Assembly: GCA_003290165.1 (NCBI GenBank)
Contig: QNQO01005873.1
Span: 124,001-188,000 of the forward strand
DNA from: Berberis thunbergii
Taxonomy: Eukaryota; Streptophyta; Magnoliopsida; Ranunculales; Berberidaceae
Direction of reading: 5' to 3'
Length of the DNA: 64,000 nucleotides
How positions within the stretch are numbered: the stretch's first letter is position 1; each line of letters opens with the position of its first letter. The translations under genes and the position numbers were made by a program. Shown piece by piece: positions 1 to 59,259 of the stretch. Under the pieces are notes generated by a model. That model had not been told where the DNA came from, made no database searches, and saw nothing but the letters and a program-made list of their open reading frames with translations.

Positions 1-48
1 ACAATCTGAAGTACTAGAGTTGATAGAAGCATAAAACTAGAATTTCAA

Positions 49-1767: not shown

Positions 1768-2179
1768 GAAAGGTATAAATTTGTCTCAATACTCTCAATG
1801 AAGATGACTTGATATGGGCAGCAAAAGGGTATAATGTAGCAAAGCAGCTGCACCAGGCCTATGGAATGAATGCAATCTACAGAGCTTACAAACTCTCGTA
1901 AAACCAGTGGAAACTTATATTTATATATTAAGGGTTTGATCTGATTTGAATCAATGAGAAATATTAAACTAAATTACAATGAGGGTATACTAAATCAATA
2001 AGTTTATCTAAAAATGTGTTAGATTTTGGGAAATCTAAAACATGCAAAGAAGTAAATAACACACACATATATATATATATACACACGTAATGGTTGCACA
2101 ATGTCACAAACTAATTTGAAAGATGAAGAACAACAACAATAACAAAAGAAGAGGATAAAGAGTTTATTCATTTCATACT
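1768..2179. other. Intergenic, AT-rich, with a short TA/CA microsatellite
   Basis: No coding match was recognised. A short microsatellite of CA and TA dinucleotides occupies about 2060-2088. The region leads into the 5' side of the LINE, whose true start could not be located; the stretch 1299-1458 before the MITE is equally featureless. Confidence 0.4.
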
Positions 2180-15800: not shown

Positions 15801-17878
15801 TGGAGAGGGAAAAATAGCTCATACTCTCATCTGAAGGTATTTGACTGTAAAGCATTTGTTCATGTACCGAATGAGAAGAGATTAAAGCTCGATGAGAAGG
15901 CATCTCCATATATTTTCAATGTTATGATGATGAGAAGTTTGGCAACAGATTATGGGATCCTGAGAATAAAAAAATTATTAGAAGCAGAGATGTGGTATTT
16001 TATGAAGATCATACCATTACAAATTTTGAGAAAATTGAAAATCCCAAGCAGATAAATAATGAGGTAGCAGATCTTACACCACTTCCTCCTCCTTTGTCGC
16101 CTGTTGAAAATGGGGGAGAGATGCCACATGATATAGTTGGTGACCATATGCCAGAAAATGAAGTTGTTAATGATGATCATTTAGAAACAAATGAGACTGC
16201 ACATGAAGAGCAACCCCTTCATCAAGAAATAGTAGAGCCTCAATTAAGAAGGTCTACCAGAGAGCGCCAAACTTCAAAAAGGTATCCCAATGATGAGTAT
16301 GTTTTCCTTATAGAAGAAGGTGAACCAGAAAATTTTCAAGAAGTTCTAGATCATAAAGATAAAGATAGCTGGATGAAAGCTATGCAAGAAGATATGAGTT
16401 CCTTGCATAAGAATGGTACTTATGATTTAGTTGAGATTCCAAACGGTAGAAAACCTTTGAAGAACAAATGGGTGTACAAATTGAAAAAGGATGGTGATGG
16501 AAAGAATGTGAAGCACAAAGCTCGATTAGTAGTAAAAGGCTTTGCGCAAAAGAAGGGGATAGATTTTGATGAGATATTCTCACCCGTGGTGAAGATGACA
16601 TCCATTGGAGTGGCATTAAGTCTTACAGCTAGCCTGGATCATGAGATTGAGCAGTTAGATGTTAAAACTGCATTTCTTCATGGGGATTCACATGAAGAAA
16701 TTTACATGGCACAACCAGAAGGTTTTGAAGTGAAAGGGAAAGAACATATGGTTTGCAGATTGGATAAAAGCCTTTATGGATTGAAACAGTCTCTGAGACA
16801 GTGGTATAAGAAGTTTGACTTCTTTATGGTAGGACATGGCTACAAGAGAACACTTCTAGACCATTGTGCTTATGTCAGATATTTTTCGCCCGATAGCTTC
16901 ATTATTCTCTTGATTTATGTTGATGATATTCTAATTGTTGGAAAAGATGTTGATATGATTGTCAGGTTGAAAAAAGATTTGTTGAGCTCTTTTGATATGA
17001 AAAACTTGGGGCCAGCTCAACACATCATAGGGATGAAGATTACACGTGATAGAAAAATTAAGAAGTTGTGGTTGTCACAAGAAAAGTATGTTGAAAAAGT
17101 ATTTGAAAGGTTCAACATGAATGATGCTAAGACCGTGAGTACTCAACTTGCTAATCACTTCAAGTTAAGTGCCAAGTTATCTCCTTGTACTGATGAAGAA
17201 AATAAGCATATGTCAGGGATTCCATACTCCTCTGCTTTAGGGTGTTTGACGTATGCTATGGTTTGTACAATACCAAGTATTGCTCAAGCAGTCGGTGTTG
17301 TGAGTAGGTATTCAGAAAATCCAGGATATAAACATTGGGTTACAGTTAAATGGATTATGAGATATTTGAAAGGTACTTTAAACCTTTGTTTAAGCTTTGG
17401 TAATTCAGGAGCTGTGTTAGAAGGGTACACAGATGCAGATTTTGCAGGTGATTTAGACAAGAATAGGTCGACTTCAGGTTATGTTTTCACTTTTGCAGGG
17501 GGAGCTATAGCTTGACAGTCTAGATTGCAAAAGTGTGTTGCTTTGTCAACTACCGAAACCGAGTTTATTGCCACTAATGAAGTAAGGAAAGAAATGTTAT
17601 GGTTGAAAAGATTGCTCAAGGAACTGCGTGCGAATTAGAATAAGTATGTGGTGCATTGTGATAGTCAGAGTGCTATTGAGTTGAGTAAGAATGCAACATA
17701 CCATGGACTTACCAAGCATATTGATACACATTACCACTGGATACGTGATGTGCTTGAGAAAAATTGTTTCCAGGCTGCAAAGAATCATATACTAGGAAAA
17801 TCCTTCCGACATGATGACAAAAGTAGTTCCAAAAAAAAAAAACATGCGTTCTGTAGAGAACTCATTGGAATGACCTAA
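15800..17878 (+). pseudogene. copia reverse transcriptase and RNase H, decayed
   Basis: The longest open frame (15992-17515, 507 codons) holds the integrase C-terminal linker (QLRRSTRERQTSKRYPNDEY) and the copia reverse transcriptase: WMKAMQEDMSSL, NKWVYKLKKDGDG, the QLDVKTAFLHGDSHEEIYM block, YGLKQSLRQWYKKFD and the catalytic YVDDILIVG at about 16916-16942. The RNase H part begins YTDADFAGDLDKNRSTSGY. A TGA at 17513-17515 replaces the tryptophan expected after GGAIA, and another stop follows near 17636, before VVHCDSQSAIELSKN. The RT itself looks little damaged, but the protein as a whole is broken. Confidence 0.92.
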
Positions 17879-34694: not shown

Positions 34695-35494
34695 TTGATT
34701 GGGTAAAATATGTTGGTTTCTCAATATCTACATTTAGAACCAACCAATACTCCATCAAAAGCTCGCAATGCCATGCAGCTGAAAGTTAATCATAGTAACT
34801 AGGAAAAAATTCAGTGACACTTTTCAACCATATTCAACAACTAACTACTATTCCCCTACCATACTACCTAACTATTTTATTCCAACCTCTAGAACACCCA
34901 TCCGACTGTAGAACCTTCGATGGAGTGCTTGGCCGTATTTGATAACAAATGTTAAAAAGTAGCCACTACTCCTCAGTAGCTTGATCACAAAGTAGAAAAC
35001 TATTTTATTGCAGCACATGCCAGATAATAAGGCATTTCAAGGGTGTGTGATAGTAAGGCGTACTCACTAAAGTATATCATCTCATCACAAAAAAATCGGT
35101 GATATGCCAAGGGTGATATTGTCGTGGTGGTGGTAATAGCATTGTTGTAGTTGTCGGAATGATGAGATTTTGAGTTGTGAGATTAAATACTAAAATGTCG
35201 CAACAATGAGCTTTAAGTTGTAAGATTAAATAAAAAAAATATGGAAAATCATGAAATATGTTGATTATCCATCCATTTATGTTTTCAGAATGCAAATTTC
35301 CAATAAATTTATAATTTTTCTTTGAAACAAGCACTAGATTTTTCACATGGTATGAAGAAAGGGACTCTAAAATTTTATTGACCTAAAATGCAATTTCTTA
35401 TGTTGGAAAATATAATCCAGAAGAAATGCACAAATTTAAACTCATTTTGATAGTCATGCAACGGAAGTTTCACCAATTTGTTGATTTTTTTGTC
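34695..35494. other. Element B interior before element C, no recognised gene
   Basis: AT-rich, short frames only. Ends with GTC, the target site duplicated around element C. Confidence 0.4.
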
Positions 35495-35509
35495 CACTAC
35501 ACCAAAAAT

Positions 35510-35785
35510 GGCCATTAGCAACAGTTTTAAACCGTGGGGGTAATCCTTTGGCACGGCTTAGAACCGTGGGCTGTAGGGGCGTCGCTAAATCCTCAGTAAC
35601 GGCTAAAAATCGTGGCAAAATATATGTTAGCCACGGCTTAAAACCATGGCAAGTCCTAGCCACGGTTATAAGCCGTTGCAAAGGTTTTAGCCACGGTTAT
35701 AAGCCGTGACAACTCATAGCCACGGCTCTGAGCCGTTGCAACAGTTAGCCATAGTTTTAAGCCGTGGCAAATTTTTTTTTTTTTT
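35510..35785. repeat. Left subterminal repeats of element C
   Basis: Repeated GCCACGGTTATAAGCCGTTGC and its inverse, about 10 half-sites facing both ways. The same array type is at the right end and in the truncated CACTA at 10722. Confidence 0.88.
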
Positions 35786-36086
35786 TGCTATCAAATGATT
35801 AAAAGCATAAGCATCAAAATTTTAGTAAAACCAATACCTAATCAAATAGACAATGGGATTATTGAATTGTGACTCTTCTCAAATGGGTTTTAATTCCTCA
35901 ATAACTAAGAAAGAACATTGTTATATATACAACCTAAAAAATGAGTCTATACAAGAATGCCAATCCAAATTTCTGTAAACCAACTCCTAAGCAAACAAAG
36001 AATAAAATTCTTGAAACCCGACACTTCTAATAGACTTTAAATTCTACAACAACTAAGAACAAACATCATTCCATGTGGTTAAACAT

Positions 36087-36250
36087 CAGATCCAGGAACA
36101 ACAACAATTCCTGTGGCCTCAAGTAGTCGACGAGCGTAGAATGCATCTGGGGCAGTTTTTGCGGCTTATGCATCTTCAATTGCCTTTTTGGCGCCCTCCG
36201 CTCTGTTGCATGTGACACCTTCTAAGCTGTTGAATGCATCTTCTAGAGTC
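36087..36250 (-). pseudogene. Alanine aminotransferase exon fragment
   Basis: One minus-strand exon reading TLEDAFNSLEGVTCNRAEGA, then KKAIEDA, a stop (TAA at 36168-36166), and AAKTAPDAFYARRLLEATGI followed by VVVPGS. This is the C-terminal region of plant alanine aminotransferase (class I/II PLP aminotransferase). About ten residues expected after EGA are deleted. An acceptor AG precedes the exon. The enzyme interconverts alanine and 2-oxoglutarate with pyruvate and glutamate; only a fragment is present here. It is the most downstream cargo of element C in the direction of transcription. Confidence 0.88.
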
Positions 36251-36599
36251 TGTACAAGGATAAACAAAAGATAGAAAACAATGGATTATTACCAGTTTCT
36301 GAAAGCTACAAAACTGACTGTTTCCTGACAACCATATACATCATGATGAGAGATAATTGATGAGCGTTTAATCAAGTGTCTGAAGAGGTACAACAATTTG
36401 TTTTTTAAAAAGTCTGAAACTGGTTATTAATTTAACGGAAATGTTAAAAGCATTTCCCATTTGCAGATTAATTCAAATGATCCATGTCTAGGATATGCAT
36501 CACTTGGTCCTCTAGTTTGGGGCATCAAAGGATCCAAAATCGGATTCTTATAAGCTGATCCTTCTACAGGTGTGATATCATTTTACTAATGGTTTTACA

Positions 36600-36980
36600 A
36601 ATTTAAATTTATAAGAAATACTCTATGTTACAATATAAGAAATACTCACTGTTGGAACTCTATGTTATTCGGCGAAAATTGACTGACATCATTGCCATAG
36701 CACGCCGTAGCTGAATCATTCAAAACAAATCATTCAACAAACAAATTATCAACCGACCTTATATTGCCTAATCTATTAAAAGATAAGTACTAGTAGTGTT
36801 CATGATAAGTGATACATACGTAAATATGGAGGACTGTATCTAGCTGCAGTGCCAACATCACCATGACAGAGGCGGAAGAGCTCTGTCAAGAAGATCAAGA
36901 AGAGACATTGAAGATGAAGCTTAGACATGAGAGGAAGTAAATGCACAATTGCCTTGAAAGGCTTAGGCTTAACCACTTAA
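36600..36980 (-). other. Unassigned sequence between cargo fragments of element C
   Basis: Short minus-strand pieces (for example ELFRLCHGDVGTAARYSPPY at about 36885-36820) look exon-like and lie between the aminotransferase and GCN1 fragments. I do not recognise them; a further captured gene is possible. Confidence 0.3.
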
Positions 36981-37274
36981 ACAAGAATTTATAGTTATCT
37001 TGTCTTAATACATCTTTCAACCATTTCTTAAATTTAAATTTATAGTATTTTCAGAAGAAAAAAAATAATAACAGCAATATATAAAACAAATAAAACATCA
37101 TTATTAGAAGAGGAGCAATATAAATATAAAGAGTGCTAAATGCCTGGCCAGCCGACTCACGAACCTCATGTGTGCTTTAACATAAGCATAAATTTATACA
37201 GTGAGTTCTAGAAGAGGAGCAATATAAATAGACAAGTATCCATGCAGTAAACTGCGAAAGAAGAAACATACTTA

Positions 37275-39054
37275 TCACAAAGGGTTGTTCGAATTGTCGG
37301 GATGAGGTCGTCCATGAAACTTAGCAACTGGTTCTTCCCAACACTAGCCATCACTTCACTAAGACCAAGGCATACCCCCTTCCAGCCAATGATGAATATT
37401 AAAAAATGGATAAATAAATCCTTATGGCATATAGATGGCATGATGTGCATTTGACAATTTATTTTGAAAACTCCAAGGAGAATGAGTTACACTACATCTG
37501 GAAATAAGTGATGAATAAGGTATGAGTCCTTGTGCCCCAGAACAGACCCACCAAATAGGAAAAACAATGAGATGCAACTAATTGGAATACAAAATGTAAC
37601 ATATTACACAAAAATGCTGAACATGTGCTATGGTGATGAAACTAAGATGAGTAAGGCCTCTAGAGGTTGCTTCATTGTAACTTGGATGATCCAGTTTGGT
37701 AAGGAAAATTACAGGTCTTTCCATATGAACAATTACTAAAATGATAAACCTACGAAATTAGTTTTAAAGAAAGTAAAATGCATATATTACACAACAGTTG
37801 AACCCATTCCTGCCATGTTCCATAGCCCCCCGCATCTGACAGTTGAATCCAAAAAAAATCAAACTCTTGACTTTTTTTCCTTGCACATAATTCCAACCAG
37901 ATTTTGCTACAAAAATCCAAACAATAAAGGGAATAGGAAATTCTGAAAGAATACAGACTAGACATGTACTAACATTATATTCGACTAACAAAATTTTCTT
38001 CATATCATCTTCCATCATCAATGTTAGTTTAGAGCTGTTCAAGTAAATACAATGACAGAAATGCAGTTCACTGATATATTGTATAAATAAGACATGACAT
38101 AGAATTCAACATTGAAATGGCCAATACATGAGAGAAGAAAAATTAGAATTAGAAAAGAACTAGAAGTTTAGAACTAATACAATAAAGCAGAATTGTAGAG
38201 ATAAAGCATTATGAATTTAATCAATATTTTTTAGATTTCCTTAAGGATCATTCTTTTACAGGAGTGTTGTATGACTCTTTGTATTCAAATTCTGGAATAA
38301 TAATAAATAAATAAATAAGATGGAAGGGAGATCCCTTGAGAAATACAATTGCAAAGCCCACCTTGAATAAAAGATCCCCCAAAAGTTCAATAGAACTCTA
38401 TCGGATACGCCAGTTGTCGTTGAAAATGCCATCCTCAACAGCTGGAAGGAGTAGAGGTAGAGACCTGATTATGAAAAAGAAACGTGTATTTGTCAGCACT
38501 TCATTACATAGAAAAAAAAGCTCATCAAAGTTCAAAGTAGCAGCATGAATAGTTGAATATCAGATGAACAGACGTTGTGGCATAATGCTCCACCAAGACA
38601 TGTCCTGCACTAAGTGCTGCATCACGTACAAATTCATTCTCATCCGAAAGTCCTGCAAACACAAATTATCAGAATCTAATGCAAGTGATGGAATTTGTGC
38701 AGTCACAATGTAAGAAACACACGCACCATCTAAAACAGCAGGAAGCACTTGTGACAAATAATTCTGGAAGCCAACGCCCAACGACCTAGGAAAATACTGT
38801 ACACAAAATCCAATTAGACCATATTATGCTCTTGGGTTAGAAGATATTCAAATCACTGATGTTACCATCATTTCGGTATGTTCACTACCTTAAAAAGTGT
38901 CAAGTACCCATCACGTACAGACGCCCTTTGATGAGAGCAGTTACGAATAATATCTGGCAATATGTTCTCAAAATACTCCTTACCAAGGGCAGCTAAAACC
39001 TGGACAGTTTTGGAAACAATCTCAGCAGTAATAGTAAATTCCCTGACATAAGAT
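37275..39054 (-). pseudogene. GCN1 / ILITYHIA HEAT-repeat protein fragment
   Basis: Minus-strand exons in the order of plant GCN1. About 39054-38890: ILPDIIRNCSHQRASVRDGY, LTLFK. About 38815-38725: FPRSLGVGFQNYLSQVLPAV. About 38655-38565: LSDENEFVRDAALSAGHVLV. About 38465-38345: LPLLLPAVEDGIFNDNWRIR, then a stop (TAG at 38400-38398) where Gln is expected, then SSIELLGDLLFK. About 37390-37275: GVCLGLSEVMASVGKNQLLS and FMDDLIPTIRTTLCD. One or more exons between the last two are missing. GCN1 binds ribosomes and activates the kinase GCN2 under stress. The fragment covers a central HEAT-repeat region of a protein of more than 2,500 residues, so it is not functional. Confidence 0.93.
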
Positions 39055-39059
39055 CAGAC

Positions 39060-40200
39060 TACTAATATCTAAGCTAACAATTATATAAAATGCAAATTGT
39101 AATCCTATAATTGAATGAACACAAAAAAAATATTAGTCGTTCTTACTCTTATGTTGATCATGCCGACATAAAGAAATCAATCTCATGTACAAGATACCAG
39201 TGACGATAGTAGAAAAAGGTAAAAAGAAATTCAAAATGAGAAGAGGCAACTGAGTAAGGAACAAGAAGCTGTTGAACACTTAGCATTAGTAACTAAGTTC
39301 CATATACATGAAAAAATAAATGCCTTTTTAAAGTAGATTTTTATATTTTAAACGAAACTAAGTAAGAAACAAAATCACAAAAATATAAAACGAACATAAA
39401 CCCATTACTAACAATTGTTATCATATAATGATCCAATAAGCAACAACTGTTATCATATAAGGAGCGACAAGCATGTTAGACTGGTAAATGATCCTAGTTT
39501 GCACCAAATATCATTTTGTGATATGGTTCGTCATAGGATTTGCTACTTTTATGGGTAAATAGGAACCATATGTGGGTCAAAATGATTGTCTTGACAAATG
39601 AATAGATTGCCAATAACATTCTGACGTTATCTCAATGAAGCAGAGGACATAGTGGATTCAAGGAAATAAAGATAAATACTGAAATTAAAGAAATTGAAAT
39701 TAAATAAAAGAAGAATATCTTTTGGAATCCTTCATTCAATCAAAGTCAATTTATGATTGATGGCCTTATGTCTGATCCTTCAATGCTTGCTAATCAAGAA
39801 GTTGGGCCTTTATCTCAAACAAAGCTCTAACCCTTATCCTAATACTAGTGAGCTTATAGGCCCAACCCAGCAATAATTAAGTAAATGAAATAAATCTTAA
39901 TTACAACAATCCCATCAGCACGACTGTCTTAATTTTTCATGAGAACTTCATTTTCCTGGGGGCAAAGGTGGATGAAAAATTTAGGTACCTAGTGGGGAAC
40001 TTTCTTTGAATTTTTATGTCATAGGTCAAAGAGTAATGCACGACATATCATATCTATGACTTGTACCTTTAAAAATTGTTAAGCAGAACTCATGGCAGTT
40101 AGGTCATCGGGGTTGGTTTTTTCAGAAGTGATTCATCTGAGAGAGGTTGCAGTATTGAAATTCTCGTAAAAGTTACACAATGTAAGAATTGACTACATGA
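39060..40200. other. Element C, AT-rich stretch without recognised gene
   Basis: Lies between the GCN1 and phosphopantetheinyl transferase fragments; likely captured intron or filler. Nothing recognised on either strand. Confidence 0.4.
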
Positions 40201-40202
40201 AA

Positions 40203-40765
40203 ATACCTATACCTTAAGTGTCCATAATTTAAGGAACTCCTGTCTTTGCACATCTGGATCTGAAATACCACACAAGTATTATGTTTCATTGGGTGAGAAG
40301 TAACGCCGAGCAAAAGGCAAAAGGTCGTTCTTTAGCTTCCTTTCCTTATCTTCTATATCAATACCTATCTGCAGTTATTTAAAGGGAATGGCTTCAAATA
40401 ACTTCCTAGTAAGGCAATACATGTGCAGGCAGGAAAGGTAACTAGAACTTGGCACAAATGAGAAAGAAATAATAGTACCGGAGAATCTATAGTCACTCCA
40501 CAGGCAATCAAGGATGTAGTATGTGAAAGGTTAAACTGCAAGGAAGGTGCATCCCACTTTTTATCATGTTGTCACTCTACCTATTCATGTCAAATAGACA
40601 TAAAAGTCGAGAGAGTTCAAAATAATCAACACAAGTAGAATAAGAAGATGAAATGAAAGAATGCTGTGTAACATAATGGAAGTAAATAAACTGACCTCTG
40701 GCTTCCCAAAAGTGTTCTTTTTGAACAACAATGATCTTGGACTTACTTGACCGCTAGTATCTAAA
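40203..40765 (-). pseudogene. 4'-phosphopantetheinyl transferase fragment (AASDHPPT/HetI type)
   Basis: Three minus-strand exons. About 40765-40697: LLFKKNTFGKPEV. About 40585-40489: VE, stop (TGA at 40574-40572, for Trp), QHDKKWDAPSLQFNLSHTTS and LIACGVTIDSP. About 40372-40203: IGIDIEDKERKLKNDLLPFA, RRYFSPNET, stop (TAA at 40281-40279), and DPDVQRQEFLKLWTLK. NLSHT, GIDIED and WTLK correspond to conserved motifs of the Sfp/HetI-type family, which moves phosphopantetheine from CoA to carrier-protein serines; the Glu after WTLK would be in the next, missing exon. Two stops make it non-functional. Confidence 0.9.
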
Positions 40766-40845
40766 CAAAAACCAAATAAGACAGCTATCAGAAAAACATG
40801 TATACACTATACCTTTTTTTAATATCATGCTATTTATCCATTGTA

Positions 40846-41189
40846 TCACCTCAAATGACCGGTGACATTTTTCACAAGTTTTTGGTATATTGGTGCTAAA
40901 GGCTTCCATAGCATCACAGTGATAACTAGCCTAGTCTTGGGATCATAGTTTGGCCATGATAAATAAGAAGAATATTTATGTTCCGATAAATGATTTTTCC
41001 ATTGGTTTTGTCCTCCATAGAAAGCACTAGACATAATTGTGAAAGGATTCGATTAAGTCCAACCTGAATTAAATAAAAAAACTTACAGTGTCTAACCTCA
41101 AGGTGGAAACAACCATTGTCCGTGTCAAGTGATGGCACTCCCAAGCTTTTGATCCTCACTCTCTTCCAATGATTATGGATGTCTTCCAA
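40846..41189 (-). pseudogene. CRM-domain splicing factor fragment (CRS2-associated-factor type)
   Basis: The minus-strand exon MEDIHNHWKRVRIKSLGVPS, LDTDNGCFHLEVR is followed after a short gap by KTNGKIIYRNINILLIYHGQ. After a frameshift near 40935 comes NYDPKTRLVITVMLWKPLAP, IYQKLVKNVTGHL. The HNHWK.....KCLGVPT..M, GG.IIYR and LWKP.AP.YP.L patterns belong to CAF1/CAF2-like proteins (mitochondrial or plastid group II intron splicing with CRS2). Only part of one CRM domain is present. It lies between the PPTase and IDM1-like fragments in element C. Confidence 0.9.
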
Positions 41190-42309
41190 GAGATTGTGAG
41201 TTACTCTCCCCTTCCCTAAGATAAAATTAAGTAAGGAGTAATCACTGGATCTCTATTCAATCGAGAAAATGATGCTTATGACAATGATAGGTAATTAGTA
41301 AAGTATCAAAGAAGATATGGATGAAGTGTGTGTGTGGGGGGGATTTGTTTAGGTTTAGGGTTTGAAGAGTTTTTTCTTAGCTCATATTTTCTTTGAATTT
41401 ATTTAGCCAATTCCCAAGCCATTACTATAGTAGGGATGTTCTTAGTGTCTCCGACCCTCTGAAGTTTTATTCTTGCTATTTGTACATGCTACTTTGATTA
41501 GAACCCACCTTGTTTAGATTACATCATCAAGTGACATCTTGTTTCTTAGTGTGGAAACAAAATAGATATTGGCATTCTCAATAGCCACCCTTGGTTAAAA
41601 CTGTAAATAAAGTACAACAGAAGAAGTCGAACCTGACATCTGCATCATTTTCTGCTCCTTCATCTGGCTCAGGTTCCTAATATCATAGTGAAAGACAGAA
41701 GATAAGCAATAGAATACAAAAAATCACTACCCGGTTATCATGAATGAATACCATGTTATTGCCATTCTCCTATTTATATGAACTTCATTGTGATGTAACA
41801 AAAAATCACTACAAGTGAACACTATCAGAGCAGACACATGCATCAATCACTTGCAGAGAGCAATCGTCTCTGACAATTTAGATTGTCCCTTTGCAAACAG
41901 ACACTAGCTTTCAAGTTAGAAACAATTTTTTTTTTGGTGTTTTACCTTGTGTGGCTCTTCTTCCATTTGTCGATGTCCAAAGCATCCATACCAACATGAC
42001 TTTGTTTTTCTTTTGGGTTCTCTCGACTGGGAGCATAACAACCCACTTAATTGGAGTTGGTTTCCCTGACATATCATTGGTTTTATCTGATATTTCCCCA
42101 AAAAACTTGCCATTTCTAAATTCTAACCAATTGGTTCAATGATTTCATACTCCACTGGTATGTCCAACAGTAATCGTTCCATGACTGCATTCTGCTCCTT
42201 ATCCTATAGAATTACTTCAGGAAGTGTGCTGTCTGTGCCCAAATCAATGCTCTCGTTACTTTGATTCAGCTCGTGCTCAAGTCTTCATTGGTTTCCTGCA
42301 GATAGTAAT

Positions 42310-44371
42310 CCACATACCATAAGGAATACTCCACCAGCACCAAACAGAAGACATTTGTCATTATAAAGTAAAGGAGTGGCGACACGCACCTCTTTGCCTT
42401 GCAATTTTCATTCTGGGTGTCGTCAACATTTTCTGACACATTGTAGTGTCCTGGAAATCTAGGAAAATGTAGTCTAGAAACTCCATCCTCTCAGACTATG
42501 GCATCTTCGAAAACCCAAATGAAGTGGTCCATGCATGTAAAACTTGAGGAATGCCACCTTTTCACCATAAACTCTAATAACAAACATGAGAATCGCATTT
42601 CAATTATAACAAATCTAAGTGGATCTAAAAAAAAGGCATTACACAGCAAAGGGAAAAATAAATAAATAAAGAACTAAAGCATATCACTCTACATTTGTTT
42701 TCCTTATAAAAAGGTTAAAGAAAAATTACACTCATTACAGGAAGAGAACACTTACCTTACTGTAGCCACTGAAATTAACTCATCCTCCTATTCAAGAAGA
42801 ACAGTGTAGAATCCTTTAAAGTCAAGTTTTCTAAGCAATGACCTGCAATAGTTGCAAAAACCAGTATTGAACACGTGGCACAGTGAAGGTAGATATAAAG
42901 TTAACCTACTAATTAATGATTTTGACACAGTACAACTCTAAGGAATCCATAACAAGGAAGTAATTTAAGAATAAACAAAGATGGAATCAGGATAGAATAT
43001 GTCCACAGAAAAATCTACATAATTCTGAAGAAGCAGGGGTAAGCACGCTCCTTAACCAAGTAAAACTTAATCAAATACATTTGAACAAAGCAAAAATGAA
43101 GAAACCTAGTATCTTCTTAATACAGCGTAAGAGACTAATAAATAGCAAGATATTTTTGTATTGCAGACTCACCAATCAAAAATCCTTAAAAAAAGTTGTT
43201 CAGCCATCTTTGAGACCATATTACACATTAGTGGATCAGATGTGACCATCTTATTTTTTTAGCTCCACACATCAGATGGGCTTGCTTGCTCTCACACATT
43301 TTCTGTGAATGAAAATCCAATCCTAGAATACCCTGCATGAGTGGTTTTCTACACAAGCTAATGCATGGTTTAACATCACAAGTTTCAAGATGTGACTGTT
43401 GTGGTTTTTGCTTACAAAGCAAAAGATAGATTGTGCATAAACAACACACATGCACACAAGCAAAACAAAGAAAAAACCAATGTCCATATGTATTGGGCAC
43501 TCAGACCATGGACACTCGTATGGGAACTCCATTGGACATACCATGATTAGATTATAAGCATTCTCACACATCCTTTAAAAATTTTCTCTATGCATGAGCA
43601 ATAACTTATGGCTCGAACCGAGGCAAGGCCTGGTTGCAACACATCAAAGGTTTAGACCAAGCTCTAATTACACCATATACTTTCACCTCATTATTGGAAG
43701 CTAGCGCCCCATCCTTCATGATTATTGTCTTCAACCTTTGTGCCTTTTCTACACTTCAATGCTGAGGTGTGCAACTTTGTTGTGTGACATTTTACATTAT
43801 CTCAAGATAATATCGTCAAGAACTGAAATAAATAAATTTTAAAAAATATATACCTAAATCAATACTTATATAGCAGACCTAAATTTAAAAAGCTGAAAGA
43901 ACCCTGAGAAATTGAAGGTTACGATTGGTGTCTTCTTCTCTGAATCAATTTTACGTGTAATCTTTTCTACTAAATGACTCACGTCATACCATACCTAAAT
44001 GTTTAAAAGCAATTGATTCAAAATTTCTAAATTAGATAGTGTATTGACATGTGAATGTAGTTAGATTTGGAGTTTAGAATGCGAAACTATGAGCTATACG
44101 AAATCATCTACTAAAGAAGGTCGTGTTTCTGAATGATATAATCTCACCTTTTATTGAAAAGAACATCTCTTACAAGATCCTTGGTTTTTTGTTCTTTTAT
44201 AGGCTCAAAACACTTGTGCAGCACTCCCAACGCAACACTAAGCTTACTTTGATGCTCTGTCAAGGTATCAATATCATAAGCAGCCTTATGATGGTCATCT
44301 CTCAATATAGTCCATGATAAATTGTCAACACCAGCTAACATAGATTTCCCCAAGAGTTTATGAAGACCCAA
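42310..44371 (-). pseudogene. IDM1-like PHD-finger / GNAT acetyltransferase fragment
   Basis: Minus-strand pieces of the C-terminal acetyltransferase region of a plant PHD-finger protein. 44371-44144: GLHKLLGKSMLAGVDNLSWT, ILRDD, HKCFEPIKEQKTKDLVRDVL. About 42845-42757: LDFKGFYTVLLE, stop (TAG at 42790-42788), EDELISVATVR. About 42545-42418: WTTSFGFSKMP, stop (TAG at 42498-42496), SERMEFLDYIFLDFQDTTMC. The strand DELISVATVR belongs to the GNAT fold; the acetyl-CoA-binding loop exon (R/Q-x-x-G-x-G/A) is missing. Full-length relatives such as IDM1 acetylate histone H3 and counter DNA methylation. The region 43230-43570 between exons has no clear match. Non-functional. Confidence 0.88.
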
Positions 44372-45424
44372 GAATATCTGTAGGAAAAAAAAAATGAAAT
44401 ATCAAAATATAAAGAACTATTAAGCAGCTTTCCCAATTGTAAACTAACATTTTTCTACAATTTTCCAATAGCCAATGATCTAAAACATAAAGAACACAGT
44501 ACCCAATTGAGATTTTAGTTCTAACATATCTTATATGGAGCAGTTGTCAGTATCTATCATAATGTTGCTATGCATCACTTACTGCAATATGACTGTTTGT
44601 GGCACTAACCGTACTATGCACATAGAAGACTTGACTGCCAAACAAAGCCAGTCAGGAAACATTTTGTTATTTTGGTACAACAATATAAAGTTCAACAAAT
44701 ATACAACAGTCAAAACCCAGCCCTCGCCCTACCGATGAATTTTGATACTTCACATTCATAACTCATGCTAATCACCAGCAATTATTTGATTCTTTCAAAA
44801 TGAAATTTCAGATCGACAGTCTGAAGATCGTGTTAAACATCTCCAGTGAAACACAATGAAATTTGTATCTAAAATGCTTGCGGGAACAATACTTGAAACA
44901 TCTAATGGTTCCAAAATTTTCTGAAATTCAAGGTACCACCTATTTTACGGGGAGTGAAGTCTTATTCAATAACATAAGAAAACAACATTGTGAAATTCAA
45001 GGTACCACCTGTTGCTGTTACTGAATGATGAGAGGGGAAGGAATGGCACCGTGCCGTTGCCGTGCGAGAAGGTGGAGGCTGAGTCCAGAGGGAGATTATG
45101 GTTGAAAGACCTTCCAAATGCAATCAAATCAAACCAAACCATGGAGAGGAGAGGAGACGACTGACGAAATTTCTCTGATTTCTGATTTCACCGCAATCAA
45201 CAAAAAAAACAAATCTGCGATTTCGATTCTCCCCTCGAGCTTTTTCAGCCAAAATGATTTTCTTACAAAACCCTAAACCTCTTAGATGAAAATGGAAATC
45301 AGCGAAAATGGAGGCGGGAGAGCCAAAATGGAGGCGAGAGAGCCAAATGTTTTCGCCAGACCGCGAATTTCGTTCGCCCGCTTGAAATTCACTCGAGTTC
45401 TTCAACTTTTTTTGATGTTTTTTA

Positions 45425-45650
45425 GCAACGGTTTTAGAACGTTGGCAAATATAGCTACGGTCAAAAACCGTGGCTATATTGGCCAACGGTCTAAAACCGT
45501 GGCTACAATGGCCAACGGTCTGAAACCGTGGGCCTTTTCCACCCACGGTTTTTATTTTTTAGCCACGGTTTTAGACCGTTGGCCATTGTAGCCACGGTTT
45601 TTAGCCGTGGAAAATAAACCAATGGCTTAGAGCCGTGGCCACCTCCCCGT
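45425..45650. repeat. Right subterminal repeats of element C
   Basis: Alternating GCCACGGTTTTTAGCCGTGG-type palindromes and ACGGTCTAAAACCGTGGC units, about 10 half-sites, leading into the terminus GCCTTTTGGTGTAGTG. Confidence 0.88.
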
Positions 45651-45793
45651 AGCTAAACATGCCTTTTGGTGTAGTGGTCATATAGGTCCCCATATTCTTG
45701 ATGCATATGTCAGTTTTCGTCTCAGGAATTGCACTCTCAATATACTTTTCATGGAGACTAGCCTTAGCGGCCCTTCCTTTACTGATTCTACTC

Positions 45794-49756: not shown

Positions 49757-51146
49757 AGTCCTTCATTACTATCATTACTATCGATTATGTCCTCCAACTC
49801 ATCAATTTCATCATCATCAACTAAAGCCACATTTTGCTTATCATGTATGATTGAGGCTTCAACATGGCCTGCTTGTATATCATTTCTATGCAACGGTACC
49901 ACATCAACATCATCATGCAATATATTCACATTACCCTCTGTGGACAAGTCTTCTTGATATGCATGACCAACAATGTTTCATTCGCATGTTCTTCAATATC
50001 CTCCTTCTCTTGCTCAGAAACATCATATACATTTCTAGGCTTTATTTTTTGTACTACATTCCAAGAAGTCCCTACTTTAGTGGTATCCTCAAGGTAAAAT
50101 ACTTGTTGCACTTTTATGAGATAAATTGATGCTTGTAAAGTGGCCATCTGTTTGAATTCCATGTTTTTTTTGTTTTCGATGTCCCACCAATTACACTTGA
50201 ATAAGTAAACTCGATTACCCATGCAATAATTTAACTCAAAAACATGTATCAAAGCACCATAAAAATCAACTTCTTTGCCTTTATGCGTGCCTGGAACAAC
50301 ACTGTAGTTTTGTGTAGTACGATTGCTATCATGGTTTTGCGTGTGGAATCTAATCGCGTTTACAATGTAACCTGAATATCTCGAAACTCTTCGATCAAAA
50401 CCACACGCTAATGAGTAAAGTTGATTAGTTGCTTCTACAGAATTGCGACAGCGCAATGACTTCGTCTATTATATAATATTTCAAATAGGATCGTAAGTTT
50501 ACAAATAAGATAGTATTACAACCAAATTTGAAGATTACATGAAACTAATGCTTATTCGATGTTCAAACCACTTGGGAAATTGGCCTTGATGCATTTGCTC
50601 ATAATTGGTAGGGTAACGCATCTTCATCTCTTCGATATGTTCACTATGTACGAGATAAATATAAGTATAAAACATAATATACCAAAATGTGACTTCTATG
50701 AATTAGAGAGATATCTTACTTTAAAATATGGTTCAATTTCCTCACAATTGTTCAACACATACCACCGTGCTTTTGTTGACTCTTCTAAATTAAAAACTTT
50801 CATATTTTGGGGATCCTAAAACGCGTGCAGTATCTCCAAATACAGAGATTAATTCAGGCCCATCTCGCTCCCCTGCATCAGCATTACGTTCTTCTGTGTT
50901 AAATCTAGTTTCAATCCCACAAAGATACATGGAACAAAATGTGAGGCACTCAGCATCAATGTACGCCTCAGCAATTGAGCCTTCTGGACTCGCTTTAATT
51001 CCTTTCATTTTGTTTAAGAGTGTGAAGGAATCTGTTCACACGAATCCATTAAATACAATGGATATAAAAAATGCACTAGGTGATAATATGGAATACACAT
51101 CACCTTTCAATTGGATACATCCATCGATATTGAACGGGTCCACTAA
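49757..51146 (-). pseudogene. TNP2 of element A, C-terminal part (DUF4218 end and DUF4216)
   Basis: Minus-strand continuation after the LTR retrotransposon. It starts SGPVQYRWMYPIER. A likely small intron (GT...AG, about 51098-51023) follows, then FLHTLKQ and PEGSIAEAYIDAECLTFCS with YLCGIETRFNTEERNADAG, which ends DUF4218. DUF4216 is at 50456-49926: RYSGYIVNAIRFHTQNHDSN, EVDFYGALIHVFELNY, RVYLFKCNWWDIEN, and TSWNVVQKIKPRNVYDVSE. A frameshift near 49930 leads into the acidic tail. The gene is then cut by element B at 49756/49757. Confidence 0.88.
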
Positions 51147-54100
51147 TGTAACACCCCTACTTTTCCAATAACAATAAATAATTTATGTTTCTAAAATTCA
51201 ATTGAAAGTGTGTTTCAAAATCTTCTTTTGTTTGACAACTAGTATTTTTCGAAATTCAGTTAACTTTCTTACCTTCCGAATCTCGGGACAAGATTCCATT
51301 TAACGTGTGTATAATGTAACACCCCTAAATTTCATAAAACTATTTTATTTTATGTTGAATTAAATAAAATAGGGGTACATTTAATTGAATGTGAATTTCG
51401 AAATTTTAGGGTTTATTTGGTGAGTTGAGAAGATGGGTGTTTTCAGAAGTCCAGTGGGGGCGAATAGCCACCCACCATATAAAGAGAAAAACCCTATTTT
51501 TTTTCTTTTCTTTCTCCTCTTCTTTTTCCCCCTTTACGTTTTCTTCTTCAATGGCCGCCGATTGTGACGACGAAGCTTCAGGAAATGGTACTCTAAACAA
51601 AATGTACGCGGTGGTACAGTCTGAAGATTTCTCTCCTCGCTGCCTCTTCTTCTTCACGTTTCTACAGCTGCAACAGAGCTCATGCATAGTAGCTCTTAAT
51701 GCAGCAACGCACCTAGTTGGTTCTTAATCCTGCTTCTTCTTTGCTTCATGACTTTAATTCACACACAAACATAGCTCGACCACGAATCAGCAGCAGAATT
51801 CCACCACGAATCAGCAATTTCTTCACGACTTCTCTGCTTCAATCTCGAATAGATTCGCCCCTAATTAGTAGCAGATTCAATTTCAGATTCGTCCCTAATT
51901 TTCTCATCTATGTTTTTGATTCAGCAATAGAATTCGCAGCCAAAGAGAGAGAGAGAGAGACTTTAGCGAGGTGTCAATCACCATTGGTCTAAGACCTGTT
52001 CACTGCTACAGGCAGATCAAGAACAAACCATATCCAAAGTCGAGGAGCTGATAGGCTCCAAACAGGCATGCATGGTGCCTTTGGCAAACCACAGTGTACC
52101 TGTGCTTGAGTCAGCATGGAGCAAGTGTTGTCCGATAGGGACAGTGAGGATGAAGTTGATGATGACATTGCAGATTTCGAAGACCGAAGGATGCTTGATG
52201 ATTTTTTCAATGTTACCAAAGATGAAAAGCTGATTATGCATCTTTGGAACTTTTTTGTGAGGAAACAAAGGTGATCATTATTCAACCCCTTCATATTTCA
52301 CTATCATTTTTTTGACATGCCATACGTGTCCTATGCTTGTTTAATGGACAGTGGAGGTTAGTTTAATATGTCACCCAGTATTTTGATTGTAGCTCAGACT
52401 CTGTGCTAAATGATATTATTATCTTCTCAAATATTGTATGCATTGGTGGGCTCATTTGCAATTTAAGATTTGGTATTTTCTTCAATAGGTTTTAAATTGT
52501 AAGATGTTATATATTTCATTCTTTGCTTAAAGGAGTAGTTAGTTCTTAATAGATATACATAAGGAAAAATAGGATTTCTGTGCTTTATGAACCATAACAC
52601 CACAAGTATATTGTCTTTGGCTTACTGAAATGTATGTAAAGTTTATTCTCAATTCAGTTTGTCTATATGGAGTATTTTGGGTGTTTTCTTTGACCTTACT
52701 TAGCTTACATCATCTTTACCAGAAGGATTGTTGTATACGTACAATGCCATCTTTGGTTATAGATATGTGTATTTCACCAATTATATATTTCATGTTGACC
52801 GATACAACAATACAAATACTATAACATGAGAAATACGAGTCTCTCGAATATCTTAGAAGGAAATTGAATCAAAAAATTAGGTATATACCTGTCATTTATA
52901 GAGCCTTCACTCCCTGTGATTATTCAAAACTCTGTCAACGGAATCTCCATGACAAAATCTGCAATATTTACTGCCTCATGTGCATATTAATCCAATCTGG
53001 TGTTTTTTTTTGCTATGCAAGAAATATAGTCTACTTTGATACCATTATTTGATTGGCTTTTGTGTGTGTGCATTTGGTGTTTTTGTTTTGAAACCTCCAT
53101 GAGTGTGTAACCAGGACAAAGGCCTGGTCAGTGTCAGTAAGGTGACTTATCATGGTTATTCCCTTTGAGCATTTAGGGTTTGGATTTTATTGGAATCAAT
53201 GGAGGAAGTCTATGGGGGTGAATGATTCTAGGAAAGATCGCCTGGGGAGTAGTTGTGGAAGCAGCAGTAGCGGTTGCTATTCGGGAAATTTCGGTGAGTT
53301 TTCTTCATTCTTTCCCTTTTTCTGTGAGTTTTCTTCATTCTTTCACTTTTTCTGTGAGTTTTCTTCATTCTTTCTCTTTTACTGTGAGTTTCTTCATTTC
53401 TTTCTCTTCTACTTTGAGTCCTTCTTTTCTATCAGTTTGCCTATGCTGTGTTACTTATTTCTTGTTCCACTTGTTGTCTTTTGATGAGTAGAATATATAT
53501 TAAATAGTACCCTTTTTAGATAATCTGTTGGATTGTTTGATTTGTTGATTGGGTGGCTGGTTCATGTTGTTCTTGAAAATAGAATATTCTCAATTTCCAA
53601 AATAGAATGGGTTTTGTCTGTGAGAATGGGTTTGCTTTCTTTGTTCATTTTGTTCATGTTTGGGTCACCCATGTTTACCATTTTATTGATTGGGTGTGAC
53701 TTTGTTTGGTTGGTGTTTGAATGGTTGATGAATATTAATGTATTGTGATAAATTTGGAGATTTGTATGCATATTGACTTGTTTATGCATTATGAACAATT
53801 TGGGTATTCGAATCAAGGAGTGGCTTGATTGCCATGTTGTTATAAAGCATGATTGATGTATATGCTATGTTTTTCCCTAAAAATGTGGGTGAATAGATTG
53901 TGAATCAATTTATGTATGACAAAATGTCATTGCGTAAGAATTCTGAATTATGAAAATAAATGATATTGGTAAGCCTTGATTTCTGAAAATATAAACCACT
54001 TGGGCTTGTATCACTTAGAACTACCACATCTCTTTTGTTTATGATTTCCCCTCTCTTACTAGAGAAACTAAATGACCAGTGGGTCGTCTTGCGGAGTTGG

Positions 54101-55062
54101 GGCACCCATTTCTTATTAGAGAAACTAAAATAACCTTCGGGTTAGTTTTGCGGAAATGTGGTGAGTTTGTATGCCTAAAAATAGGCTTTGATATTTATCC
54201 GTCAAAAATGTGACGTGAGTTTATGCGCATTGATAGCCCAAGGGTGGCTTTTGGTACTAATATAGTTAGGGGTATCCGCGATGCATGCCTGTATGTGATG
54301 TCCCCACTTAGGCATGGATGACAGAGTAGTCTCCTTTATATGAGAGAGGCAATACGGGCATGTATGTTCGGCATGGAGGTGGTGCGAATGTGGTATCGTC
54401 TAAGTGATCAATCCGTTCAAAAGATAAACCTAATTCAAATAAAAAGAATAAATGACGTTGCATTGTTTCTAATTCTTTTTATGCAGGATGGCAAGTCCAC
54501 TAATATTTTTGCAGGTCCGACTTGCCATAGTCAACTCTTATAGGGTAAGTACAGGTAAATGCATGTTTACATATTAGGATGATGATATGATTGTCTCGTT
54601 GAGGAACTAAATTCTTTGGACTGTGTTTTCTTGCATCACACCTTTGCCTCGTTGAGGAACTACCTATTGGTGTGATGGTTTGTTGTTTGTGTTTCGCTTG
54701 ATGTTTATCATGTGCGATTTATTGAGTTTTGGGATGAAGATTTCTCACACCAGCTTTATTGCTGACCCAAGTGAGCTTTTGCTTCTTGGGTACATTCCTT
54801 TGGGAATATAGCCGATTAGCTTTTCAGGTTTAGAGACTTTTGAGCAGCGTTACAGGGAGTTTCGCTAGTGGGGCTACCGACGTCGGAATTTCATGGTTAG
54901 AGCTTTATTATAAATTTTAGTTTGTTCTTTTTTTTAAACTTTATTTTTCTTTGCTGCTAAATGTTTCTGTTGTTATTGAATTTCACGTCCTGAGTTTTGG
55001 GGAAACGGATAACCCTACGTGGATTTTAGGATTTCATTTTTCTCGAAAATTGGGGCGTGACA
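51147..55062 (+). repeat. Left LTR of the giant-LTR element
   Basis: 3916 bp. A 168-bp segment (51147-51314) precedes a second LTR-like start (TGTAACACCCCTAAATTTC at 51315). A promoter-like CATATAAAGAG box lies at about 51476, followed by the frame starting MAADCDDEASGNGTLNK (about 51551). It contains a VEFS exon (52116-52271) and short TTTCTTCATTC repeats (53295-53415). Confidence 0.93.
52116..52274 (+). pseudogene. VEFS-box exon (EMF2/VRN2/SUZ12 type) captured in the left LTR
   Basis: A clean 52-codon frame reading MEQVLSDRDSEDEVDDDIAD, FEDRRMLDDFFNVTKDEKLI, MHLWNFFVRKQR. This is the start of the VEFS box of plant Su(z)12-type Polycomb proteins (EMF2, VRN2). The stop immediately after KQR lies in what looks like a retained splice donor (AG|GTGATC), where the exon of the source gene is expected to end, so genomic DNA rather than mRNA was captured. 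In PRC2 the VEFS box contacts the E(z) methyltransferase. Whether this fragment is translated is unknown. Confidence 0.9.
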
Positions 55063-55385
55063 GTTTGGTATCAGAGCATTTGGTTAGCCTAGGCTGGGGT
55101 AGAGTCTAGGTGATCCTCGGAATGTGGATATGGGTGTGTAGGAGTGTAGGAGTCTTAAGATGAAGTTACGAGGGTGAACCTTGGAAACTTTAGTTTTGTT
55201 TTATTTTCTTCGTGAATCTCATGACGAGGTTACATTGACATGTGTGAGCACGAGTAATCTTATTTATAATGTCAATATTTGCGTGAAATTATTTCGTATT
55301 ATTTTTTTTGGGTTTTGATTTCCGTAGTGTTCACTTACCACTTTTCGTGAATCTCGGGACGAGATTCCTTTTTAGTTGTATATAA
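55063..55385 (+). other. Internal region with primer binding site
   Basis: 323 bp. TGGTATCAGAGC at 55066-55077 is the initiator-tRNA-Met primer site, directly after the left LTR. The 3' part has CGTGAATCTCGGGACGAGATTC, like the end of gypsy pol plus flank. No purine-rich tract is clear before the right LTR. No coding capacity. Confidence 0.88.
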
Positions 55386-58300
55386 TGTAACACCCCTACT
55401 TTTCCAATAACAATAAATAATTTATGTTTCTAAAATTCAATTGAAAGTGTGTTTCAAAATCTTCTTTTGTTTGACAACTAGTATTTTTCGAAATTCAGTT
55501 AACTTTCTTACCTTCCGAATCTCGGGACGAGATTCCATTTAACGTGTGTATAATGTAACACCCCTAAATTCCATAAAACTACTTTATTTTATGTTGAATT
55601 AAATAAAATAGGGGTACATTTAATTGAATGTGAATTTCGAAATTTTAGGGTTTATTTGGTGAGTTGAGAAGATGGGTGTTTTCAGAAGTCCAGTGGGGGC
55701 GAATAGCCACCCACCATATAAAGAGAAAACCCTATTTTTTCTTTTCTTTATCCTCTTATTTTTCCCCCTTTACGTTTTCTTCTTCAATGGCCGCCGATTG
55801 TGACGACGAAGCTTCAGGAAATGGTACTCTAAACAAAATGTACGCGGTGGTACAGTCTGAAGATTTCTCTCCTCGTTGCCTCTTATTCTTCACGTTTCTA
55901 CAGCTGCAACAGAGCTCATGCACAGTAGCGCTTAATGCAGCAACGCACCTAGTTGGTTCTTAATCCTGCTTCTTCTTTGCTTCATGACTTTAATTCACTC
56001 ACAAACATAGCTCGACCACGAATCAGCAGCAGAATTCCACCACTAATCAGCAATTTCTTCACGACTTCTCCGCTTCAATCTCGAATAGATTCGCCCCCAA
56101 TTAGTAGCAGATTCAGTTTCAGATTCGTCCCCAATTTCTCTCATCTATGTCTCTGATTCAGCAATAGAATTCGCAGCCAAAGAGAGAGAGAGAGAGACTT
56201 TAGCGAGGTGTCAATCACCATTGGTCTAAGACCTGTTCACTGGCTACAGGCAGATCAAGAACAAACCATATCCAAAGTCGAGGAGCTGATAGGCTCAAAC
56301 AGGCATGCATGGTGCCTTTGGCAAACCACAGGTGTACCTGTGCTTGAGTCAGCATGGAGCAAGTGTTGTCCGATAGGGACAGTGAGGATGAAGTTGATGA
56401 TGACATTGCAGATTTCGAAGACCCGAAGGATGCTTGATGATTTTTTCAATGTTACCAAAGATGAAAAGCTGATTATGCATCTTTGGAACTTTTTTTGTGA
56501 GGAAACAAAGGTGATCATTATTCAACCCTTCATATTTCACTATCATTTTTTTGACATGCCATACGTGTCCTATGCTTGTTTAATGGACAGTGGAGGTTAG
56601 TTTAATATGTCACCCAGTATTTTGATTGTAGCTCAGACTCTGTGCTAAATGATATTATTATCTTCTCAAATATTGTATGCATTGGTGGGCTTCATTTGCA
56701 ATTTAAGATTTGGTATTTTCTTCAATAGGTTTTAATTGTAAGATGTTATATATTTCATTCTTTGCTTAAAGGATTAATTAGTTCTTAATAGATATACATA
56801 AGGAAAAGTAGGATTTCTGTGCTTTATGAACCATAACACCACAAGTATATTGTCTTTGGCTTACTGAAATGTATGTAAAGTTTATTCTCAATTCCTGTTT
56901 GTCTATATGGAGCATTTTGGGTGTTTTCTTTGACCTTACTTAGCTTACATCATCTTTACCAAAAGGATTGTTGTATACGTACAATGCCATGTTTGGGTTA
57001 TAGATATGTGTATTTCACCAATTATATATTTCATGTTGACCGATACAACAATACAAATACTATAACATGAGAAATACGAGTCTCTCGAATACCTTAGAAG
57101 GACATAGAATCCAAAATTAGGTATATACCTGTCATTTATAGAGCCTTCACTCGATTATTCAAACTCTGTCAACGGAATCTCCATGACAAATCTGCAATAT
57201 TTACTACCTCATGTGCATATTAATCCAATCTGGTGTTGTTTTTTGCTATGCAAGAAATATAGTCTACTTTGATACCATTATTTGATTGGCTTTTGTGTGT
57301 GTGCATTTGTGTTTTTGTTTTGAAAACCTCCATGACTGTGTAACCAGGACACAGGCCTGGTCAGTGTCAGTAAGGTGCCTTATCATGGTTATTCCCTTTG
57401 AGCATTTAGGGTTTGGATTTTATTGGAATCAATGGAGGAAGTCTATGGGGGTGAATGATTCTAGGAAAGATCGCCCGGGGAGTAGTTGTGGAAGCAGCAG
57501 TAGCGGTTGCTATTCGGGAAATTTCGGTGAGTTTTCTTCATTCTTTCCCTTTTTCTGTGAGTTTTCTTCATTCTTTCTCTTTTACTGTGAGTTCTTCATT
57601 TCTTTCTCTTCTACTTTGAGTCCTTCTTTTCTATCAGTTTGCCTATGCTGTGTTACTTGTTTCTTGTTCCACTTGTTGTCTTTTGATGAGTAGAGTATAT
57701 ATTAAATAGTACCCTTTTTAGATAATCTGTTGGATTGTTTGATTTGTTGATTGGGTGGCTGGTTCATGTTGTTCTTGTAAATAGAAATATCTCAATTTCC
57801 AAAATAGAATGGGTTTTGTCTGTGAGAATGGGTTTGCTTTCTTTGTTCATTTTGTTCATGTTTGGGTCACCCATGTTTACCATTTTATTGATTGGGTGTG
57901 ACTTTGTTTGGTTGGTGTTTGAATGGTTGATGAATATTAATGCATTGTGATAAATTTGGAGATCGGTATGCATATTGACTTGTTTATGCATTATGAACAA
58001 TTTGGGTATTCGAATCAAGGAGTGGCTTGATTGCCATGTTGTTATAAAGAATGATTGATGTATATGCTATGTTTTTCCCCCAAAAATGTGGTGAATAGAT
58101 TGTGAATCAATTTATGTATGACAAAATGTCATTACGGAAGAATTCTGAATTATGAAAATAAATGATATTGGTAAGCCTTGATTTCTGAAAATATAAACCA
58201 CTTGGGCTTGTATCACTTAGAACTACACATCTCTTTTGTTTATGATTTTCCCTCTCTTACTAGAGAAACTAAATGACCAGTGGGTCGTCTTGCGAAGTTG

Positions 58301-59259
58301 GGGCACCCATTCTTACTAGAGAAACTAAAATAACCTTCGGGTTAGTCTTGCGGAAATGTGGTGAGTTTGTATGCCTAAAATAGGCTTTGATATTTATCCG
58401 TCAAAAATGTGACGTGAGTTTATGCGCATTGATAGCCCAAGGGTGGCTTTGGTACCATATAGTTAGGGGTATCCGCGATGCATGCCTGTATGTGATGTCC
58501 CCACTTAGGCATGGATGACGGAGTAGTCCTCCTTTATATGAGAGAGGCATACGGGCATGTATGTTCGGCACGGAGGTGGTGCGAATGTGGTATCGTCTAA
58601 GTGATCAATCCGTTAAAAGATAAACCTAATTCAAATAAAAGAATAAATGACGTTGCATTGTTTCTAATTCTTTTTATGCAGGATGGCAAGTCCACTAATA
58701 TTTCTGCAGGTCCGACTTGCCATAGTCAACTCTTATAGGGTAAGTACAGGTAAATGCATGTTTACATATTAGGATGATGATATGATTGTCTCGTTGAGGA
58801 ACTAAATTCTTTGGACTGTGTTTTCTTGCATCACACCTTTGCCTCGTTGAGGAACTACCTATTGGTGTGATGGTTTGTTGTTTGTGTTTCGCTTGATGTT
58901 TATCATGTGCGATTTATTGATTTTTGGGATGAAGATTTCTCACACCAGCTTTATTGCTTACCCAAGTGAGCTTTTGCTTCTTGGGTACATTCCTTTGGGA
59001 ATGTAGCCGATTAGCTTTTCAGGTTTAGAGACTTTTGAGCAGCGTTACGGGAGTTTCGCTAGTGGAGCTAGCGACGTCGGAATTTCATGGTTAGAGCTTT
59101 ATTATAAATTTTAGTTTGTTGTTTTTTTTTCTAGACTTTATTTGTCTTTGCTGCTAAATGTTTCTGTTGTTATTGAATTTCACGTCCTGAGTTTTGGAGA
59201 AACGGATAACCCTACGTGGATTTTAGGATTTCGTTTTTCTCAAAAATCGGGGCGTGACA
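55386..59259 (+). repeat. Right LTR of the giant-LTR element
   Basis: 3874 bp, collinear with the left LTR, with the same 168-bp leading segment (55386-55553) and second start at 55554. The differences are small indels and substitutions, for example one fewer TTTCTTCATTC unit near 57550. Confidence 0.93.
56354..56513 (+). pseudogene. VEFS-box exon, right LTR copy (frameshifted)
   Basis: Same exon as at 52116-52274, starting MEQVLSDRDSEDEVDDDIAD. An extra C near 56424 breaks the frame before the LDDFFNVTKDEK part. The single-base difference between LTRs arose after insertion, since LTRs are identical when the element integrates. Confidence 0.88.

Follow-up and report, generated by a model that had tools for sequence, protein, structure and literature searches.

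How does a transposon come to carry pieces of five unrelated host genes, all on one strand and with their introns kept? The question is raised by a CACTA element at positions 35495-45676 of a 64,000-nucleotide stretch of the Berberis thunbergii genome, which we refer to as the window. The window lies on contig C5857 of the species' own 2.24-Gb assembly (G000), which was the genome searched throughout; the copy counts given here are numbers of matches, not insertion sites, and are lower bounds wherever candidates were capped or missed. We consider it probable, judging from the match of its left half to one kind of element and of its right half to another, that this element was made by fusing two cargo-carrying CACTA elements that pointed in the same direction. 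Its features, in order along the window, are these.

35492..35494, left target-site duplication GTC, read from the sequence; the same GTC stands beside a copy on contig C96
35495-45676, CACTA element of 10182 bp, defined by exact inverted ends, GTC duplication, and subterminal arrays
35495..35507, plus strand, left terminal inverted repeat CACTACACCAAAA, 13 bp
35515..35771, left subterminal repeat array
36087..36612, minus strand, alanine aminotransferase (ALT) fragment, comprising the exon for about residues 437-501 and an intron
37127..39369, minus strand, GCN1 (ILITYHIA) fragment, in which six exons remain of nine captured
38186..38191, GCN1 deletion join, where about 0.8 kb is gone and three exons retained in relatives are removed
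39370..40194, spacer between GCN1 and the next fragment, origin not assigned; C71-type elements share it from 39431
40195..40851, minus strand, phosphopantetheinyl transferase (PPT) fragment, three exons; the 40195 edge is taken from copies on C199 and C253
40849..40851, hybrid join, the CCT common to a C71-type left half and a C9263/C709-type right half
40849..42144, minus strand, CRM-domain fragment (CAF type), by Pfam CRM on the spliced exons
42145..44995, minus strand, IDM1-like fragment, by Pfam IDM1_C
43127..43128, IDM1-like deletion join, where 76-79 bp are gone; the source candidate and all four relatives compared still have them
45422..45640, right subterminal repeat array
45664..45676, minus strand, right terminal inverted repeat, the exact inverse of CACTACACCAAAA
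45677..45679, right target-site duplication GTC

The search for other copies with the same ends, which the first-pass annotation of the window had called for, turned up three other complete elements. Read end to end, each has its own target duplication and another combination of cargo. The element on C71 (10267 bp, CCT duplication) has the order ALT-GCN1-PPT-SpoIIIAA type, the block after PPT holding a Spore_III_AA-type domain (Pfam, 2.1e-6), and its right end is related in the last 140 bp only (88%). That on C9263 (9455 bp, ATA duplication) reads ALT-GCN1-CAF-IDM1, with an extra CRM exon pair in its CAF piece (2.2e-6) that is missing from the window element. The third, on C709 (10499 bp, ATG duplication), reads ALT-MCD-SpoIIIAA type-GCN1'-CAF-IDM1, where GCN1 is partial and MCD is a piece of malonyl-CoA decarboxylase (5.7e-8). 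The window element, with the order ALT-GCN1-PPT-CAF-IDM1, matches C71 through its base 5357 (window position 40851) and C9263 and C709 from its base 5355 (40849), the two matches overlapping by the CCT. Its left portion is thus of one relative's kind and its right portion of a second's, with a reservation over mismatches at its left end. In C709, a similar join links the SpoIIIAA-type block to the partial GCN1 with a 4-bp overlap, in the module order that a head-to-tail fusion would give.

Mismatches to the window element were compared block by block. On the left side of the join, C71 differs by 2.7% in the spacer and 2.5% in GCN1, against 3.3% and 3.0% for C9263 and, in GCN1, 2.9% for C709; across spacer plus PPT, a block missing from C9263 and C709, the difference from C71 is 2.3%. 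On the right side, C9263 and C709 differ by 1.4% and 1.6% in CAF, 2.8% and 2.4% in IDM1, and 5.1% and 3.7% at the right end.

A hybrid join is what a model of fusion between neighbors predicts. In the passages of PMC8903248 on which we draw, neighboring elements of the same direction lose their inner ends and then move jointly, and local pairs are mostly in one direction (12/15 and 12/13 in two maize superfamilies). On this model, two CACTA elements of the same direction would have lain side by side, their facing inner ends would have been lost, and the pair would then have moved as one element, with the ends presumably acted on by the transposase of an unseen CACTA element. The join itself may have come from end-joining repair, either in one event or through a subsequent internal deletion in a longer fused element that resembled C709. 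Cargo would then move as pre-assembled blocks, so that five genes would need fewer than five captures in that lineage. The first-pass annotation had proposed stepwise acquisition; with halves belonging to two other kinds of element and a microhomology join between them, the five genes were likely not captured one by one in this element.

Matches elsewhere in the genome bear on the blocks themselves. CAF matches end at the CAF/IDM1 boundary in 19/42 cases, 10 from base 1 and 9 from base 714 (40 of 591 candidates scored), and one of the 19 could be the CAF gene itself; the CAF block occurs elsewhere both with and without IDM1. IDM1 matches end at the boundary with the right end in 8/81 (40 of 3615 candidates scored). 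All six of those eight that were examined continue into further IDM1-like gene sequence, one being the source candidate and the other five having another sequence in common. A lone ALT exon accounts for 73/82 matches to the ALT protein (80 of 444 candidates scored), and one PPT exon for 36/38 ACPS matches (49/49 candidates scored), some of which are gene relatives such as C592 and not element copies; the PPT copies of the window and C71 are absent from the 38, so this search misses copies. The first kilobase of the element finds matches of about 590-1000 bases at 40/40 places scored, window included (40 of 4803 candidates scored). Element bases 3937-5357 (window 39431-40851, spacer plus PPT) recur at seven further places at 97-98%, with both edges shared, and this block is likely to represent either another kind of element or an inserted repeat.

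Sources could be placed for three of the fragments, and the divergence between them and the elements is 2.1-4.4%, introns included. For ALT, the source is C1242:271290-271845, which is taken to be the gene because flanking ALT exons are present there; identity to it is 95.5-96.4% in C71, C9263, and C709, and 90.1% over 557 columns in the window copy, which contains deletions (23 mismatches in 525 ungapped). C207 was rejected as an ALT source (77-91%). For GCN1, the source is C675:572974-576877, to which the long pieces of the window, C71, and C9263 are 95.8-97.7% identical, introns included, with 95.8% and 97.3% for the two long pieces of the window; a second GCN1 locus, C1507, was rejected (80-91%). 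The candidate for IDM1-like is C491:489033-493565, from which five copies differ at 2.1-2.5% of 2469-2920 aligned bases (2.5% in the window), and its paralog C9177 was rejected at about 11%. The collinearity of C491 with C9177 past both capture edges, for 188 bases on the left and 218 on the right, suggests that C491 is a gene locus, as opposed to a copy of the element. Among candidates for PPT, C53 was rejected (no DNA match and another transferase type), as were C199 and C253, which share 97.7% mutual identity and both continue jointly past the boundary; these two are likely either dispersed copies or a repeat.

ALT has diverged more from its source than GCN1 or IDM1 (3.6-4.4% vs 2.1-2.5%), with uncorrected Fisher p values of 0.004, 0.04, and 0.02, the first for C71 and the second for C9263 against GCN1. 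The fusion model expects younger cargo further inside, and this is half borne out: ALT, at the left end, looks older than GCN1, while IDM1-like, which adjoins the right end, looks no older than GCN1, counter to the expectation.

Several further points weigh against the fusion of neighbors. Among the elements examined in this genome, no tandem parent pair was caught, and the genome matches singled out no source for PPT or CAF. Bases 1-3969 of the element are common to both element kinds, so the case for C71 as parent of the left half depends on the PPT block and the join. No pointer to C71 comes from the left end itself, where mismatches over left end plus ALT are 5.9% for C71, 4.0% for C9263, and 3.5% for C709. 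The microhomology at the join fits gap repair with template switching as well as it fits deletion between neighbors. In addition, a 22-bp piece of GCN1 intron is duplicated at the left GCN1 junction (37105-37126 and 37209-37230), a repeat that looks like templated filler and would point to copying repair at capture.

Such repair is the main rival explanation. Here, a single lineage would have captured its cargo stepwise, with gaps left after excision being filled from unrelated loci with template switches and fragments accumulating. The templated-looking filler is in keeping with this, as are the internal deletions with few-base overlap that are common to the three elements compared, the greater divergence of ALT from its source, as if it had been captured earlier, and a window left end that is not nearest to C71. 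Left unexplained are the meeting in one join of a match to C71 that stops at base 5357 and a match to C9263 and C709 that starts at base 5355, and the CAF matches that end at the CAF/IDM1 boundary (19/42). As an account of the whole element we regard stepwise capture as rather unlikely, and template-switching repair may well be how single genes first entered.

The single orientation of the cargo calls for separate treatment. The first-pass annotation had described five unrelated fragments on the minus strand with introns kept, which is borne out, Pfam scans of both strands (35798-45400) showing host-gene domains on the minus strand only, and had called the shared orientation unusual and suggestive of a directional mechanism or of selection. 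All seven host genes identified in the element family (the five plus MCD and the SpoIIIAA type) lie on one strand. Plus-strand Pfam scans gave no match in three elements (C71 and C709 minus the last 0.7-1 kb), and none at E<=1 in window positions 35800-45400. By chance, co-orientation would arise for 5/5 with p=1/16 and for 7/7 with p=1/64. As the hypothesis arose from the five genes, an independent test comes from the two new ones alone (2/2, p=1/4). A directional bias in cargo is thus no more than possible. A broader proposal is that ALT, GCN1, PPT, CAF, IDM1-like, MCD, and the SpoIIIAA type form a shared pool of one-directional exon blocks traded among CACTA elements by head-to-tail fusion. 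Cargo would then multiply by combination, every time in one orientation, owing to a directional preference of either capture or fusion; we offer this as a doubtful extension of the fusion reading.

Alternatively, fragments may have been kept in one direction by selection, if a chimeric spliced transcript running from the right end were useful to the element or the host. The one-stranded cargo and the lack of Pfam matches on the plus strand of three elements agree with this, and the window copy retains 11/11 of the GCN1 splice dinucleotides that could be tested. With divergence near 2.4%, chance alone is expected to remove about half a splice base, which makes the intact splice sites no evidence, and the chance levels given above apply here too, with Pfam missing fragments that have no domain. 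The coding content was examined in GCN1, the one module tested, using 16 copies with enough sequence from 12 sites (three haplotype pairs, the window with C96, and eight singles). Divergence from the source is 1.4-3.5% in exons and 1.8-3.2% in introns; the first, second, and third codon positions carry 98, 81, and 76 changes (summed over copies, which share history); and 11/16 copies have at least one stop when read on source codons. Because exons diverge like introns and stops are common, there is no sign of protein-level selection, and the GCN1 fragment evolves neutrally at that level. Selection for direction therefore seems improbable to us, and any effect on the host, putative as it is, would likely act via RNA.

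Lastly, the idea that adjacent host genes were copied jointly by segmental duplication, with CACTA ends flanking them by accident, is extremely improbable: we found no point in its favor, and it is refuted for ALT, GCN1, and IDM1-like by sources on three contigs with 2.1-4.4% divergence through introns, and by perfect ends and duplications in an element family whose four complete members have four different target duplications. For the three placed sources, this answers the refuting condition that the first-pass annotation had named, donors lying side by side in the genome.

The names first given to ALT, GCN1, PPT, and IDM1-like are upheld by protein matches and Pfam domains. ALT finds a solved alanine aminotransferase at E=3.6e-13 and has a best protein match of 2.8e-32; the window copy has lost 10 residues and contains one stop. 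The captured part of GCN1/ILITYHIA corresponds to residues ~1681-1990 in nine exons and has a best protein match of 1.7e-28, with 92% identity across about one fifth of the query in many plants. PPT is marginal, with Pfam ACPS at 3.1e-5 and 24.4 bits, slightly below the curated 25; the spliced 54-residue piece scores more weakly (ACPS 0.0047; Sfp in the Protein Data Bank 0.021), and the exons are 62-78% identical to the plant gene relative C592. The IDM1_C scores of the window element (1.9e-6 and 1.5e-6) fall below the curated 33 bits, and the relative on C709 reaches 6.4e-13 and 49 bits. Assignment by protein search, as first proposed, succeeded for ALT and GCN1, and with the raw CAF frame gave no scoring match. 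In that piece, Pfam CRM rises from 0.2 in the raw frame to 1.1e-6 with two exons spliced, and the piece is that of a CRM-domain protein, putatively of the "CRS2-associated factor" type.

The element belongs to the CACTA superfamily. As in the first-pass annotation, this is one 10.2-kb unit with exact 13-bp inverted ends, perfect GTC duplications, and subterminal arrays; ends beginning CACTA, a 3-bp target duplication, and direct and inverted subterminal repeats are the marks of the CACTA superfamily. A 21-nt subterminal unit was counted 11 times in the window, compared with 0.00 in shuffled sequence (scan with up to 3 mismatches), with 6/11 in this element and 5/11 in another element end at 10899-11046. 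There, positions 10722-11046 carry an exact CACTACACCAAAA end and a like subterminal array, forming the left end of a related CACTA element, with no exact inverse end to pair with it in the window. No transposase family was found at E<=1 by Pfam in six frames of 35798-45400, and the element thus lacks, over that range, the gene that would mark an autonomous CACTA. Host-gene fragments from separate loci (three sources on three contigs) make it a Pack-CACTA element, and the same ends at four different target duplications in four complete elements attest to mobility.

Both haplotypes are apparently present in the assembly as separate contigs. Grouped by their flanks, 18 left ends represent 12 insertion sites, six of them seen twice with flank identity of 97.3-99.9%. 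The copy on C96 was rejected as an independent insertion (element 99.8%, flanks 99.7-99.9%, same GTC) and is likely the same insertion as that on C5857, on the other haplotype contig. On contigs C209 and C6725, two IDM1 exon matches lie about 9 kb apart (8.8 kb on C209) in the same direction, with one right-end match each; from this spacing, the two are possible candidates for head-to-tail element pairs.

A CACTA element with five genes is already known, as is the fusion of Pack elements (PMC8903248). Tgm-Express1 (PMC1947982), a soybean CACTA element in the wp allele, resembles the window element in carrying exons and introns of five unrelated host genes. It differs in its length of 5.7 kb against 10.2 kb and in its known chimeric spliced transcripts, and the passages of that paper drawn on here describe neither relatives with other combinations nor a hybrid join. 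Arabidopsis Pack-CACTA elements likewise have CACTA-type ends, host fragments, and a proposed fusion of neighbors of the same direction (PMC8903248, PMC13317346); compared with what those passages report, the join here links blocks that were already multi-gene, and both parent kinds survive complete in one genome. Published elements also include some that contain two smaller relatives or gain gene pieces internally, although these are units of ~0.3-0.5 kb with one or two gene pieces, unlike the window element. No multi-gene hybrid accompanied by both of its parent kinds appeared in the titles and abstract openings of the literature searched, which covered few subscription papers. Multi-gene loading by plant transposons has been argued from few cases. 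In this genome, the hybrid, its three placed sources, and relatives of each half stand together at ~2-4% divergence, which allows the order of capture, fusion, and deletion to be followed at single-base level, and neighbor fusion as a builder of multi-gene cargo becomes directly testable.

Elsewhere in the window, a 308-bp stretch at 4049-4356 has CACTACACCAAAT and the inverse of that sequence as its boundaries, is flanked by TGA left and right, and is likely a small CACTA-derived element. A 309-bp stretch at 1459-1767, whose two ends are TACTACACCAAAT and the inverse of CACTACACCAAAT and which is flanked by GAA left and right, is likely a second. A large inverted repeat at 5978-7682 and 8669-10374 has 1.7-kb arms of 99.5% identity about 1 kb apart and would form a long hairpin if transcribed. 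There is also a 3.9-kb direct duplication at 51144-55062 and 55383-59259, side by side with 96.5% identity, and reverse-transcriptase-type frames lie at 15896-17512 (Pfam RVT_2, 2.7e-74) and 13568-14473 (RVT_3, 1.5e-18).

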